Shown here: positions 5,303 through 10,958 of the stretch, one piece after another
How the letters are laid out: every line of letters begins with the position of its first letter
How positions within the stretch are numbered: the stretch's first letter is position 1
IMG/VR virus record: IMGVR_UViG_3300037584_000843
Location: 1 to 20,025 of that record
Reading direction: 5' to 3' (one strand)
From: a virus
Length of the DNA stretch: 20,025 bases
Program-made: the position numbers and the translations under genes
Notes under the pieces: generated by a model
Told to the model about the DNA's origin: nothing
The model's input: only the letters and a program-made list of their open reading frames with translations
The model's database searches: none

Positions 5303-5602
5303 TTAGCATTTCCATCTTCTACGTGCTTGTCTTATTCTAGAATTAGGATTATTCCTAGTTTTAGCAGAACTTCTTTTCAGTTGTCCTAAAGACCTTGCAC
5401 AGTAAGACTTTCTTCTTTTAGCTGCCTTGCTACCTTTCTTTACTTTACCGGTAACAGCAGTTTTTAATTTACTTCCAGGATTAGCCCTTCTATAAGCTTT
5501 TACGCCTTTAGCTGTCATTCCAGCTCCTTTTTTAGTAGGTCTGTAATTAGCGTTTTTACCTTTAGTGGTTCTTCTTATAGATTTAGCTTTTTTTCTTGGC
5601 AT
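5303..5602 (-). CDS. Arg/Lys-rich protein of the DUF6321 type, probable virion component
   Basis: A 99-residue, extremely basic protein with almost no acidic residues. The central segment (TAVTGKVKKGSKAAKRRKSY, about 48-67, followed by CARSLGQ) is the signature I associate with DUF6321 proteins of aquatic phages; many lack a defined role. The charge suggests nucleic-acid binding, perhaps inside the capsid, but that is inference. Its stop codon lies outside any overlap. Its start overlaps the stop of the thioredoxin-fold gene as TAATG, so translation is likely coupled. Two Cys occur (in SYCARS and the C-terminal RRRWKC). Confidence 0.75.
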   Translation of the reverse strand: MPRKKAKSIRRTTKGKNANYRPTKKGAGMTAKGVKAYRRANPGSKLKTAVTGKVKKGSKAAKRRKSYCARSLGQLKRSSAKTRNNPNSRIRQARRRWKC

Positions 5603-5985
5603 TATTGTATAACTTTTTTAATTTTATCAAAAACTTCTTGTTCGTCAAATCTCATACTAATACCAGGTTCATATCTCATAACCTCTTTACCTTCTTTAAG
5701 AATGATAATAGTAGGGACAATCTTAATGTTCCATTCTTTTTGAATTACTGCGCCAACAGTTTTGTTATTTAAGTTTATCTCTCCTACGTAGCAAAGCTTA
5801 GATAGTTTTTCTACCTTAACCCTGTTTGAGTAATTCCAAGACGCATTGACTTGAACTACTGCGCATTTTTGTACATTTAAGGCTTGTATATCTGCAAAGT
5901 TATCTAAGTTGACTGATTGTGAGTGCAGCCAAGACAGCGATGAGAAGAGCGTTAATGCCAAGTATGATATAAATCTGTTGTTCAT
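5602..5985 (-). CDS. Secreted thioredoxin-fold protein lacking the CXXC active site
   Basis: A 127-residue protein with an N-terminal signal-peptide-like segment (MNNR, then hydrophobic FISYLALTLFSSLSWL, probable cleavage after about residue 22-24). The rest reads as a thioredoxin fold: a central strand AVVQVNASW (42-50), and the cis-proline region IVPTIIILKEGKEVMRYEPG (89-108), with P91 as the expected cis-Pro. Where thioredoxins have WCGPC this protein has W50-N-Y-S-N54, so it should have no disulfide-exchange activity. C41 and C65 remain elsewhere. The N-terminal segment implies export or membrane association in the infected cell. Its neighbours are a membrane-anchored coiled-coil protein and a basic protein. 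A structural or scaffold-like role, or a role in the cell envelope during lysis or entry, is possible but unproven. Confidence 0.75.
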   Translation of the reverse strand: MNNRFISYLALTLFSSLSWLHSQSVNLDNFADIQALNVQKCAVVQVNASWNYSNRVKVEKLSKLCYVGEINLNNKTVGAVIQKEWNIKIVPTIIILKEGKEVMRYEPGISMRFDEQEVFDKIKKVIQ

Positions 5986-7006: not shown

Positions 7007-7347
7007 TATACCTCACTCCATGCGAACACATTGCTTACTGATGTTTCGCTGTAAAATTGTTTTATTCTTCCTTGACTTAGTCTAGGTATATCTATATACT
7101 CTCCATTTGAATTTTTAATAGAACATCTAAACACTTTGTTCACTGTTATATTTTGATTGTCATCTAAATCATACCAAAGTTTATTGTCTAATAAATCTGT
7201 TTTAGCATTTTCTATTTGATTAGTATATCTACCCATATCAATCAATGCTTCATTAATTAAATTAAGTACATAGTTCTCTGAGACTTCAGGAACTGCTTGT
7301 TGTACTCTACTATAAATCTCTTTTGCTGTAAATTCTATCGCAGCCAT
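7006..7347 (-). CDS. Small adaptor-type phage protein, 113 aa
   Basis: The N-terminal half is helical (EIYSRVQQAVPEVSENYVLN, then LINEALIDMGRYTNQ), followed by beta-like segments rich in Asn/Asp, and a C-terminus with aromatic residues. It sits between two other adaptor candidates. Both its start and its stop form TAATG overlaps with neighbours, so the three genes are probably made together. The mixed alpha-then-beta profile fits small head-tail joining proteins, but there is no diagnostic motif. Confidence 0.5.
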   Translation of the reverse strand: MAAIEFTAKEIYSRVQQAVPEVSENYVLNLINEALIDMGRYTNQIENAKTDLLDNKLWYDLDDNQNITVNKVFRCSIKNSNGEYIDIPRLSQGRIKQFYSETSVSNVFAWSEV

Positions 7348-7973
7348 TATACACTTCCTTGTAATATTTGTATTTGTTCTTTATATTGTGCATCTATTAA
7401 TTGATATTGAGCAGTTAGTCCTGACACTAGCTCTACATCTTCAGCAACGTTTGCATCTGATATTCTTTTTTCTAAAGCATTTCTAGCTGCAAATAATACT
7501 ACAGCATTTTCTGCTTCATCAGGAAAATTTGTTATAGAAGTATCATCATAAGTCAAACCTGAAAATGAAAGGTCTATATTAACTAATGACATATCATTCG
7601 TAGAAGCACTTGTAGGAAATACCTGTAAAGTATCTCCATCCACCCAATAAGCAGGGTCACTAGTAGAAGCTGCTTCCATATAACTAGAGTCAGTAACTCT
7701 TCCTTTTAATGCAGGAGAAATTTGTCTACAAGGCATAAGTTTACTGCCGTTGTTTTCATCTTTACGCATAACAGCAACTACTTTTTTACCTTCTACATCA
7801 ATTGTATTCTCAAAGTCAGTTGTTGAGGCTACTCTTTGTAGTTTAGTAGGACTTAAAACGTCTACAACTGCCCTAGCTCCTGCAACAAGCCAATCTGTTA
7901 TATCAGCTTGGTCTGAACCAGTGCCATTTCCGAATCCTGTCAATGCATCTATTCTGTTTTCAAAATCAGCCAT
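7347..7973 (-). CDS. Head-tail adaptor / neck virion protein (putative)
   Basis: A 208-residue protein. The motif ITNFPDEAENAVVLFAARNA (about 146-165) is one I recognise from phage neck or head-completion proteins, where a 'fPdeae-vv-yAa-nal' helix follows a beta region. Upstream are a helical N-terminus (DWLVAGARAVVDVLSPTKLQ) and a beta-rich middle including AYWVDGDTLQVFP. The last 45 residues are a long helix. Start and stop are both shared with neighbours (TAATG at 7973 and 7347). Probable position is the ring between portal and hub. Confidence 0.6.
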   Translation of the reverse strand: MADFENRIDALTGFGNGTGSDQADITDWLVAGARAVVDVLSPTKLQRVASTTDFENTIDVEGKKVVAVMRKDENNGSKLMPCRQISPALKGRVTDSSYMEAASTSDPAYWVDGDTLQVFPTSASTNDMSLVNIDLSFSGLTYDDTSITNFPDEAENAVVLFAARNALEKRISDANVAEDVELVSGLTAQYQLIDAQYKEQIQILQGSV

Positions 7974-8116
7974 TATTTACCTTGTCCTCTATATTTTTTG
8001 ACATAATATTTCTTACTTGTCTTTGTTCCATATTTAGTATTTACACTATTACCCTGTCTGGTCTTTTTCTTACCATTAGTATTTCTAACTTGAGTTCCAA
8101 ATACAGGTCTTCTCAT
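7973..8116 (-). CDS. Small basic protein, 47 aa
   Basis: ATG at 8116 to TAA at 7973-7975. The product begins MRRPVFGTQVRNTNGKKKTR and ends KKYYVKKYRGQGK, with about a third Lys/Arg and no acidic residues. Both ends use the TAATG overlap, so it is embedded in the coupled series of tiny genes between capsid and adaptor genes. Nucleic-acid binding inside the virion is plausible from the charge alone; no family is recognised. Confidence 0.75.
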   Translation of the reverse strand: MRRPVFGTQVRNTNGKKKTRQGNSVNTKYGTKTSKKYYVKKYRGQGK

Positions 8117-8310
8117 TAACCTCTTCTTGCCTTCTTGCGTTTTTTAGCAGTTTTAGCAGCTCTTTTAAAATTAGCTGCAGTAGGAGCGCCTTTGCTTCCA
8201 GGTTTTCTCATACGTTCACCTGAACCTGCTTTAATGCGTTTACGTTTAGCATGTATGTTTGCATACAAACCTTTTCTCTTACTTTTTCTTACTGTTTTTT
8301 TCTTTGGCAT
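8116..8310 (-). CDS. Lys/Arg-rich small phage protein, 64 aa
   Basis: A 64-residue, very basic product. GLYANIHAKRKRIKAGSGER (residues 14-33) followed by MRKPGSKGAPTA is a pattern I have met in small proteins of many tailed phages, often encoded near structural genes; no function is established to my knowledge. Coupled at both ends by TAATG overlaps. The protein could compact DNA or occupy the capsid interior; this is inference from composition and position. Confidence 0.8.
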   Translation of the reverse strand: MPKKKTVRKSKRKGLYANIHAKRKRIKAGSGERMRKPGSKGAPTAANFKRAAKTAKKRKKARRG

Positions 8311-8507
8311 TATCTACCTACCTTTTTTTGTGCTGCTTTATGAGCTTGTGTAAAAGTTTTACCTCTTTTCATCATGTTAGTCATACTTTTCATATGTTTT
8401 CCTGTATGATGCTTAGCATGTTTTTTCATTGTAGATTGCTGTCTTTTTGTAAGACCAGATATATCTACACCTTTTACCATCACTTTCTTTTTCTTAGTAA
8501 CTGCCAT
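8310..8507 (-). CDS. His/Lys-rich small phage protein, 65 aa
   Basis: The product has a helical segment, KRQQSTMKKHAKHHTGKHMK (residues 21-40), then SMTNMMKRGKTFTQAHKAAQ. The H-x-H-H..KHM and GKTFTQAHKxAxxKVG pattern recurs in small proteins of tailed phages, as I recall. His clusters could bind metal or nucleic acid. It starts inside the end of the preceding 36-aa gene (14-base overlap) and its stop is shared with the next start. Confidence 0.8.
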   Translation of the reverse strand: MAVTKKKKVMVKGVDISGLTKRQQSTMKKHAKHHTGKHMKSMTNMMKRGKTFTQAHKAAQKKVGR

Positions 8508-8604
8508 ATCTACTTTTCTTCATTGTTTTTTTCTTTTTCTTCGTTGTACTCTTTTTCTTTTTCTTGCCTTTTTTCTTCATTCCACTTCCATAACCATATG
8601 CCAT
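8494..8604 (-). CDS. Lys-rich micro-protein, 36 aa
   Basis: ATG at 8604 gives a 36-residue protein: an aromatic/Gly start (MAYGYGSGM), then almost solid Lys runs (KKKGKKKKKSTTKKKKK) and the end SRYGSY. More than 40% of residues are Lys. It was too short for ordinary ORF filters, but its start forms a TAATG overlap with the upstream zinc-ribbon gene and its end overlaps the next gene by 14 bases, so it fits exactly in the operon. Related Lys-runs are frequent in small phage proteins; the role is unknown. Confidence 0.75.
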   Translation of the reverse strand: MAYGYGSGMKKKGKKKKKSTTKKKKKTMKKSRYGSY

Positions 8605-8852
8605 TACATTATCCTCTGCTTTGGTCCCTTACTAGATACTTTAGAAGCTCCTTGTTTAAGCTTTTCCATACCTTCTTTATGAGACATTGTTTTTATATCA
8701 ATCTGGTCTTTTCTAATAGCTGTTGCAAAGCGATTGTTTTCTCTTACAACAAATTGAGTACTCCATCTTGGTGGATTAGCTCTTTGTCCACAACTTGGAC
8801 AATTGAACATTCCATCAGGATTTGGCTCGTTACAATGTTGACAATTAGCCAC
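8604..8852 (-). CDS. Zinc-ribbon protein, 82 aa (GTG start)
   Basis: Starts with GTG at 8852, within a TAGTG overlap with the upstream gene; no ATG fits before the zinc site. The N-terminus has C4-x-x-C7 and C18-P-S-C21-G, a rubredoxin/zinc-ribbon arrangement for one Zn2+. The rest is polar with Lys clusters near the C-terminus (GMEKLKQGASKVSSKGPKQR). It opens the block of very basic tiny proteins. It could be a DNA- or RNA-binding factor or a small structural protein; there is no basis to choose. Confidence 0.75.
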   Translation of the reverse strand: MANCQHCNEPNPDGMFNCPSCGQRANPPRWSTQFVVRENNRFATAIRKDQIDIKTMSHKEGMEKLKQGASKVSSKGPKQRIM

Positions 8853-9584: not shown

Positions 9585-10958
9585 TTATAACCCCTCTATG
9601 TTGTATAAAGCGTGAGATTCAGGAAGTGTGATTTCAAGACCTGCTTCAGTAAGAATCATGTCTTTTCTCAAATCTTCATCTGCACTTTGTACATTTGTCA
9701 TGATTTGAGTGTCACGGTTAATTCCATTACCTACTAGTGGTCTGTAAGCTAACTGACTCATGTCAGCCATAACCATCATTCCACTTGTAATGCCTCTGAA
9801 TAAAGGTTGTTTAACTAAGAACATACTTCCGTGCACAGTATTAATTTCCATTAATTTGTGTCCAAAAGCACCGTCTACGTTATCCATGTTAACTCTGTAT
9901 GGAGCGTTTCCGTATCCTACAGAAGCGTCAACAAAGGCACCGTCGCCCATTTTGTTAAAGAATGAGATAATTGGTAAAGAAGCCATAACAAGTTTTTCAC
10001 TTGCTCCGCCTCTTGCAGGGTCAAATATAACCTCTAAGTCTGATAATAATTGGTCATATGTTAACTCTGATTCTTGTAAAGTTCTGTGATAAGCTTTACC
10101 TGATGAGTATGATAATGGTGTACCAGCGCCAACTGGAGCAACATTTTTTAATATATTACCAATAAGACCTTCAGTGTATTGAACGCCTGCGTAGCGAGCT
10201 TTTTGACCGAAAAGCATTGCTCTTTCAATGTCAATTTTGTGCTCGCGTAATTTCTGAGCCCATATTCTATCAAACTCATTCGCATATCCACGATGACGTG
10301 TTGCGATTGCTGTGTTTGTTAGTTCACAAGCTGTTTTAAAGATTTGTGTATAACCAAATCCGTCGTCTAGACTATCTGAGAAAGTATCTGGTGATGCAGT
10401 TCCTTCTTCAAATGATGTACCAATAATTTGACAAACATCATCATTTTCAAGAACGTTATAACCAGTACTTGTGTTAGCATCAGATAGACCTATGATTCTA
10501 CCTTGGAAGGTAGAAGTTGAGCCAACCGTTTCTGGTCCGCTTTCAACTCTAACCAAAACTTGGGTGTAACCAGCTGCTGTATCTAAGGTACCAACTGCAA
10601 AAACCATTCCTTTTGTAAGGAAGTTTACTGCTGCTCCTCCTACAGTGTCTACGGTAAATCCGTATACTCTGTTTGCAACTACTGGGTCAGACCCGTTTGG
10701 TGCTGCCGCCAACAAAAAGCTTCTGTCTGTGTGATTGATTTGACTTCTGTTTTCAAGAAATCTGAAAACGTTGTCGTCAGTCGCAACTTTAGAAACATTA
10801 GCTAAGTAGGTGAAAAAAGGTGATTCCTCTGGAGTTAATTCTGCAACTCTATCAGAGAAATCATACAGTTTTCTTTGGTCTGGAGCTTGTCCATAACCTG
10901 CCGCTGTTGTTGAGGCTGTTATTTGGGATGCTTTTAGCATGCCTTTATTTATAGCCAT
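9585..10958 (-). CDS. Major capsid protein, HK97 fold, SU10-type (DUF5309-like)
   Basis: A 457-residue protein with the hallmarks of the SU10/DUF5309 capsid family: N-terminal YDFSDRVAELTPEESPFFTY (about 32-51), a helix with HKIDIERAMLFGQKARY (about 236-252), and the C-terminal segment GITSGMMVMADMSQLAYRPL (about 391-410). Such proteins form the icosahedral shell, usually with scaffold help. Residues about 90-190 look like an extra beta-rich insertion (MVFAVGTLDTAAGYTQVLVR) that makes it longer than I expect for the simplest members. Preceded by AGGAG and by the scaffold gene, as normal in head modules. Confidence 0.85.
   Translation of the reverse strand: MAINKGMLKASQITASTTAAGYGQAPDQRKLYDFSDRVAELTPEESPFFTYLANVSKVATDDNVFRFLENRSQINHTDRSFLLAAAPNGSDPVVANRVYGFTVDTVGGAAVNFLTKGMVFAVGTLDTAAGYTQVLVRVESGPETVGSTSTFQGRIIGLSDANTSTGYNVLENDDVCQIIGTSFEEGTASPDTFSDSLDDGFGYTQIFKTACELTNTAIATRHRGYANEFDRIWAQKLREHKIDIERAMLFGQKARYAGVQYTEGLIGNILKNVAPVGAGTPLSYSSGKAYHRTLQESELTYDQLLSDLEVIFDPARGGASEKLVMASLPIISFFNKMGDGAFVDASVGYGNAPYRVNMDNVDGAFGHKLMEINTVHGSMFLVKQPLFRGITSGMMVMADMSQLAYRPLVGNGINRDTQIMTNVQSADEDLRKDMILTEAGLEITLPESHALYNIEGL

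Follow-up and report, generated by a model that had tools for sequence, protein, structure and literature searches.

What might four tiny, strongly basic genes, packed between a zinc-ribbon gene and the neck genes of a phage, be doing there? The question arises in the window, by which we mean the whole 20,025-base stretch of a virus record that was analysed, from a marine bacterial virus. A first-pass annotation had described four coupled, strongly basic genes of 47, 64, 65 and 36 residues, termed b47, b64, b65 and b36 here, together with a fifth basic protein at 5303 assigned to DUF6321, and had suggested a jointly acting set, perhaps of DNA-condensing or capsid-interior proteins. The positions, charges and overlaps of the genes are confirmed and the DUF6321 assignment is secure, its 47.6 bits exceeding the cut-off of 28.5. 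The features under discussion are listed in Table 1.

Table 1. Coordinates of features in the window and in related records.
Feature	Coordinates	Strand	Properties and evidence
b36, 36 aa, Lys-rich tail-like protein	8494..8604	-	net +16; b36-like ORFs in relatives' slots
b65, 65 aa, Lys/His-rich	8310..8507	-	net +18; PHROG 31838, E 2.6e-4
b64, 64 aa, basic module with conserved 31-aa core	8116..8310	-	net +26; PHROG 16028
b47, 47 aa, basic, near-constant final slot gene	7973..8116	-	net +15; PHROG 516
DUF6321 protein, 99 aa	5303..5602	-	net +36; PF19846
Zinc-ribbon gene, upstream border of slot	8604..8852	-	DZR 21.1 bits, under the Pfam cut-off of 27.3
208-aa gene, first neck-region gene, downstream border of slot	7347..7973	-	slot layout of relatives
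Major capsid protein, SU10 type	9585..10958	-	PF17236, 98.1 bits
127-aa ORF directly upstream of DUF6321	5602-5985	-	by eye
Near-neutral inserted gene, 145-162 aa	L051:9921-10358, L057:9673-10110, L024:12729-13217		between b47 and first neck-region gene
b47 relative of P-HM1	NC_015280 43568-43696		PHROG 516
b64 relative of CRP-810, about 50 aa	L085:7989-8147		apparent misannotation
S-CREM2 gp137	108049-109521		DUF6321 at its end
Orphan chromosomal b64 homologues	L268:5022-5189, L309:4995-5162, L271:4995-5156; L292, L297, L320 near 5000		53-55 aa
Family of about 105 aa with targeting-like start	L340:3576-3890, L357:10269-10583, L493:6224-6547, others		often directly after DUF6321

The row is compact. 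The overlaps b36/b65, b65/b64 and b64/b47 are 14, 1 and 1 bp, and 1-bp overlaps also join the zinc-ribbon gene to b36 and b47 to the neck-region gene. No Shine-Dalgarno motif could be seen upstream of b65 or b64, which fits translational coupling. The four proteins have pI values of 10.6-12.0 with lysine, arginine and histidine contributing 32-44% of residues. Five of the 25 genes called in the window reach a net charge per residue of at least 0.25, four of them side by side, and 0.8% of shuffled gene orders contain a run of at least four such genes (P 0.008), a value to be read with the caution that the 0.25 threshold was picked after inspection of the data. PHROG and Pfam searches found no family for the 208-aa neck-region gene and none at E ≤ 1 for b36, which, like some other members of the interval, resembles a plain lysine-rich tail. 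The ORF directly upstream of DUF6321 appears thioredoxin-like with a signal-peptide-like start.

Comparison with relatives, excluding L002 and L003 (the window's own phage) and applying length filters, gives median dN/dS values of 0.07 for DUF6321 (13 pairs), 0.20 for b47 (36 of 37 pairs with finite dS), 0.24 for b64 (14 pairs) and 0.35 for b65 (six pairs, dS 1.2-2.0). These values speak for coding constraint. For b36 none of six pairs has a finite dS and the ratio is not estimable.

Is this a conserved operon? A search with the capsid protein found 150 loci, of which 80 were kept; 24 of these are without one border of the interval, leaving 56 that possess both, 55 of them from viruses other than the window's own phage. 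In all 56 the interval, henceforth the slot, consists of two to six tiny genes, and at least seven families, mostly basic, are represented. A net charge of at least +8 is carried by 114 of 126 distinct slot ORFs, the remaining 12 being in part wrong-frame chaining artefacts and in part real inserted genes (71, 145 and 162 aa). b47 is present in 51 of the 56 slots and a different 40-aa gene replaces it in L045, L046 and L048-L050. Among the 55 other loci the slot contains b64 in 10 (weak matches in L055-L057 are to the basic start of a different family and were left uncounted), a relative of b65 in nine and, by a low-complexity match, b36-like ORFs in eight. The relative of b65 in L008 also matches PHROG 31838, with E 5.5e-6. 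Further slot families are FSYTKAG, KGYHFM and two adjoining tiny genes that match the halves of DUF5872 (PF19197), the first at E 7.9e-10, above the cut-off, and the second at 0.0019, below it; DUF5872 has no match in G001, a longer contig of the window's own phage. In L007, L010, L011 and L042 b64 is placed immediately before DUF6321 instead, and in L123 b65 sits between DUF6321 and b64.

The full set of four, and with it the order b36-b65-b64-b47, occurs in none of the 55 other loci and is confined to the window's own phage. Since the content of the slot varies in this way, the interval is an exchangeable slot of interchangeable modules, as opposed to a fixed four-gene operon. One fixed, jointly inherited set of four is not supported by this comparison, and the members also differ in distribution, with cyanophage relatives of b47 in the baseplate region and b64 beside head genes. 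Some relatives, L051, L057 and L024 among them, have a near-neutral gene lodged between b47 and the neck-region genes, and for the copy in L057 no Pfam family was found.

The affinities of b47 were visible only by profile. A tblastn search gave no phage match at E 0.01, and relatives surfaced through PHROG 516, which b47 matches at E 1.1e-7 over profile positions 10-48 of 48 and the S-SM1 member at E 6.7e-27. The cyanophage relative T4-GC394 has a PAAR gene on one side and gp25 on the other, in the baseplate region, and S-SCSM1_11 is two genes ahead of a baseplate wedge gene. Because these relatives sit among baseplate genes, b47 may instead belong to the neck or tail side. The relative in P-HM1 is an open but unannotated frame, the annotation having been given to a different, overlapping one.

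b64 matches PHROG 16028 with E 8.3e-29 (profile positions 3-49 of 50). It is found in 84 phage records, with up to 93.5% identity across the 31-aa core, and in at least 600 viral-contig stretches, and DUF6321 is found in 536 of 50,697 phage records. The two are on the same strand and within 3 kb of each other at 48 of the 80 loci found with b64. Terminase, portal, scaffold and capsid genes predominate among the large genes closest to b64. The matches listed include 77 to head or packaging families among 133 near proteins, as against 14 among 67 at 3 kb or more, a tally in which one protein may match two families. The pair lies directly between scaffold and capsid in HTVC168P, between the same two genes in company with others in S-SBP1 and S-RIP2, and between capsid and gp11 in P-SCSP1u; it stands among head and packaging genes in T7-like phages too, and in CRP-810 b64 is four genes off the capsid gene. 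There are exceptions. In CRP-5 b64 closes a gene block that faces the phoH block, in CRP-2 a gene of DUF5872 type is upstream of the terminase and in HTVC010P DUF6321 follows the endolysin. A term search of the P-SCSP1u cryo-EM paper (PMC10575957) brought up nothing about this pair.

Several records deserve comment. Several phage records, CRP-810 for example, give b64 relatives about 50 aa long the name ribonucleotide reductase A subunit, an apparent misannotation. Orphan homologues of b64 occur in the chromosomes of Variovorax, Xenophilus, Schlegelella and Ramlibacter; a prophage interpretation of these Comamonadaceae genes was considered and dropped, as by eye their neighbours look ordinarily chromosomal. 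Limnohabitans phage DC33 (PQ492659.1, L090) is filed under Inoviridae, yet the record is of 39 kb.

Are these proteins simply polycations? An alignment of 44 b64 sequences contains 16 invariant columns, mostly of non-basic residues, and the model has two predicted helices (pLDDT 81.9). The model of DUF6321 is compact with four helices (pLDDT 87.3). Searches of the PDB returned no fold match for the b64 model and nothing better than E 9.6 or Z 2.9 for that of DUF6321; at the level of sequence the b64 profile gave three PDB matches, all at chance level, and the DUF6321 profile none. Against a viral library of structures the DUF6321 model gave 12 rows with E ≤ 0.001, comprising DUF6321 proteins, a virion protein of S-SCSM1 and unnamed entries. 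The blanks in the fold searches do not establish a new fold for either protein. The many conserved non-basic residues of b64 and DUF6321, and the folds predicted for both, suggest that they are more than polycations and make a specific partner likely, be it a form of DNA, the capsid or the scaffold.

T4-like cyanophages carry the same modules in a different arrangement. Their fusions join DUF6321, both halves of DUF5872 and sometimes b64. The T4-GC119 protein of S-SM1 and its counterpart in S-P4, the latter annotated 'structural protein', each combine GLRKWF, YPSAY and DUF6321 modules in one chain, and in P-HM1 a KGYH module is fused to DUF6321. A search with the DUF6321 domain only gave 69 new loci, with eight on contigs of the earlier set dropped and three re-returned loci counted once, and these provided 54 module-bearing ORFs of at least 90 aa. 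The three-module architecture accounts for 31 of the 54 ORFs, and fusions of a short leader, b64 and DUF6321 occur at five loci. Modules encoded as separate tiny genes in the window's clade are thus parts of a single chain in T4-like phages. The b64 fusion of P-HM1 is annotated as a cytidylyltransferase, an assignment we reject on inspection by eye, the sequence looking like a string of low-complexity modules.

Some of the fused proteins are associated with particles. S-CREM2 gp137, with DUF6321 at its end, is listed in the mass-spectrometry virion table with four unique peptides and 4.1% coverage, peptide positions not being given in that table (PMC10665884 Table 3). S-SCSM1_29 contains three modules and is labelled 'virion protein' in its record; the corresponding paper reports 45 virion proteins by mass spectrometry (PMC9602691). 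The DUF6321 protein S-SZBM1_192 is not in the published table of 30 virion proteins of its phage, and GC119 of S-SM1 is annotated hypothetical though the same record labels others 'virion structural protein'. Virion association therefore stands at two of four comparable DUF6321-bearing cyanophage proteins, and at zero for stand-alone modules.

If the fusions are precursors, then cleavage sites might be expected between modules. The prohead protease of T4 recognizes a pattern of the [LI]xE type. In 76 module proteins, dereplicated by linker from 105 so that shared linker ancestry is partly removed, [LI]xE[AGSN] was observed 75 times outside modules where 38.6 were expected (sd 6.0), and once inside modules where 8.1 were expected (sd 2.9). 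Outside modules the controls [LI]xD, [LI]E, [LI]xK and the reversed pattern were within about 1.2 sd of expectation and [LI]xxE was within 1.6 sd. An intended control, [FV]xE[AGSN], was likewise enriched (76 against 37.3 expected), so the pattern is better described as hydrophobic-x-Glu-small and is not strictly that of T4. A protease-like site is present in 52 of 145 leaders or linkers. Peptidase S77 was detected in six of six T4-like records as against none of ten others, a contrast that is confounded with ancestry and in which five of the ten are contigs, possibly fragments; S78 was detected in none of the 16. Neither peptidase was detected in five of five contigs of the window's clade, which may themselves be fragments, and the four row proteins and the DUF6321 protein of the window have no [LI]xE site.

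The leaders of the fusions were compared with capsid-targeting sequences. The targeting motifs tried first were not enriched, the strict form being present in 0 of 53 T4-like fusion ORFs against 15 of 793 others and the loose form in two of 53 against 15 of 793. A start with aromatic residues at positions 4 and 7 occurs in 12 of 53 against 13 of 793, with the qualification that the query itself had such a start. The DUF6321-only set provides a weak replication, seven of 54 against 13 of 347 (P 0.010), and a stricter version requiring S/T occurs in 0 of 54 against nine of 347. None of the five window proteins has the aromatic start. Most remaining ORFs with targeting-like starts belong to a family of about 105 aa, often found directly after DUF6321 in T4-like marine contigs. 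Positions 4 and 7 are the main capsid-targeting positions according to PMC9026906.

On the basis of these observations we propose, with a probability of about one half, that the row is an exchangeable slot for internal head proteins that are packaged with the DNA, each with a gene of its own in small phages and probably joined in a cleavable precursor in T4-like phages. Small basic proteins from a shared set of modules (b64, DUF6321, the DUF5872 halves and others) would be produced late, together with the capsid proteins, then go into the prohead and remain inside alongside packaged DNA, where their charge would offset part of that of the DNA and/or the proteins would be delivered with it. In small phages every module would be its own tiny gene, whilst in T4-like marine phages the modules would be joined as a precursor, some with a capsid-targeting-like leader, which the prohead protease probably cuts at sites between modules. 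We infer the head-interior location, the DNA binding, the cleavage and the notion that the stand-alone proteins of the window behave like the fused ones; the DNA-condensing role is also an extrapolation. The suggestion of a capsid-interior role in the first-pass annotation is the best-supported reading, favoured by position among head genes, charge, the link to DUF6321 and virion association in two of four cases, although the unit is a set of interchangeable modules and not these four genes. One copy of each of the five window proteins carries a charge of +111, which at an assumed 415 copies each would correspond to approximately 66% of the charge of 35 kb of DNA, and we estimate that module charge matters only at hundreds of copies. 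A bolder version, possible though on balance doubtful, is a protamine-like system shared by aquatic tailed phages, in which the modules fill the head and condense DNA, arriving from separate genes or from a leader-bearing polyprotein that is cleaved, with equivalent mature peptides.

Other explanations should be considered. The modules might be head-assembly helpers, basic peptides that bind an acidic scaffold or the inner capsid surface and perhaps leave with the scaffold. The frequent placement of the pair directly between scaffold and capsid genes would suit such a role, as would the acidic nature of the scaffold-like protein of the window (net -19) and the specific non-basic residues conserved in b64 and DUF6321. 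We consider it unlikely nevertheless, given that one fused DUF6321 protein is reported from mature particles and another is labelled a virion protein, and that slot members are freely swapped within one capsid lineage, unlike the partner of a conserved capsid.

Somewhat less probable again is that the proteins are effectors ejected to act on the nucleoid, restriction or RNA of a new host in the manner of T4 internal proteins, the exchange within the slot reflecting an arms race. Exchange inside one lineage is consistent with this, and the T4 internal proteins are, according to PMC9026906, not highly conserved, replaced by other targeted basic proteins and possibly a reflection of host-restriction systems. 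The extreme conservation of b64 (identity of up to 93.5% in its 31-aa core) and DUF6321 (dN/dS 0.07) between unrelated phages and hosts argues otherwise. We think it improbable that these are late RNA- or ribosome-binding proteins unrelated to the particle, whose position among head genes merely signifies late expression. Size and charge are like those of ribosomal tails, b65 matches Ribosomal_L6e below the threshold (E 0.1) and the chromosomal b64 homologues of Comamonadaceae are beside apparently unrelated genes, but the repeated placement among scaffold, capsid and tail-tube genes, the occurrence of DUF6321 within virion-associated fusions and the lack of PDB sequence relatives above chance all count against the idea.

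The proposal of internal head proteins, if correct, would have wider consequences. Phages carry b64 and DUF6321 widely, as unexplained genes that records call hypothetical or, in several cases for b64, ribonucleotide reductase, and several uncharacterised families would acquire a function together. It would also challenge the view, expressed in PMC3281028, that basic proteins of tailed phages do little to neutralise DNA. Module carriers are in culture, namely P-SCSP1u, S-SBP1, HTVC168P and S-SM1, so a head-internal role is testable. PHROG 16028, 516 and 31838 are listed as of unknown function, DUF6321 and DUF5872 likewise carry no functional assignment, and the PHROG entries make no mention of slot, pairing or fusions. 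Our literature search found no paper on DUF6321 nor, judged by title or the start of the abstract, on these modules.

How do the modules compare with known systems? The core proteins of adenovirus and P6.9 of baculovirus are small, basic, DNA-condensing virion proteins, those of adenovirus being cut from precursors, and the likeness to the modules, by analogy, would be in size and basic character. In the chlorovirus PBCV-1 the proteins A278L and A282L, with a 'basic adaptor domain', are described as basic proteins bound to DNA in a dsDNA virus particle (PMC3281028); these are kinases of about 60-70 kDa from a eukaryotic virus and the analogy would extend to their being basic virion proteins. 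The same text states that there is no evidence for basic proteins contributing much to the neutralisation of phage DNA, so that, on that statement, DNA-neutralising basic proteins would be a novelty among tailed phages. The haptophyte virus CpV-BQ1 is credited with a DUF5872 protein in PMC12085832. The T4 proteins IPI, IPII and IPIII are capsid-targeted and cut by gp21. The window proteins, without a targeting start or an [LI]xE site, are compared with them by features: like these T4 proteins the modules are small, basic, encoded by late genes and swapped among relatives, and the T4-like marine fusions share in addition the targeting-like starts and protease-like sites.
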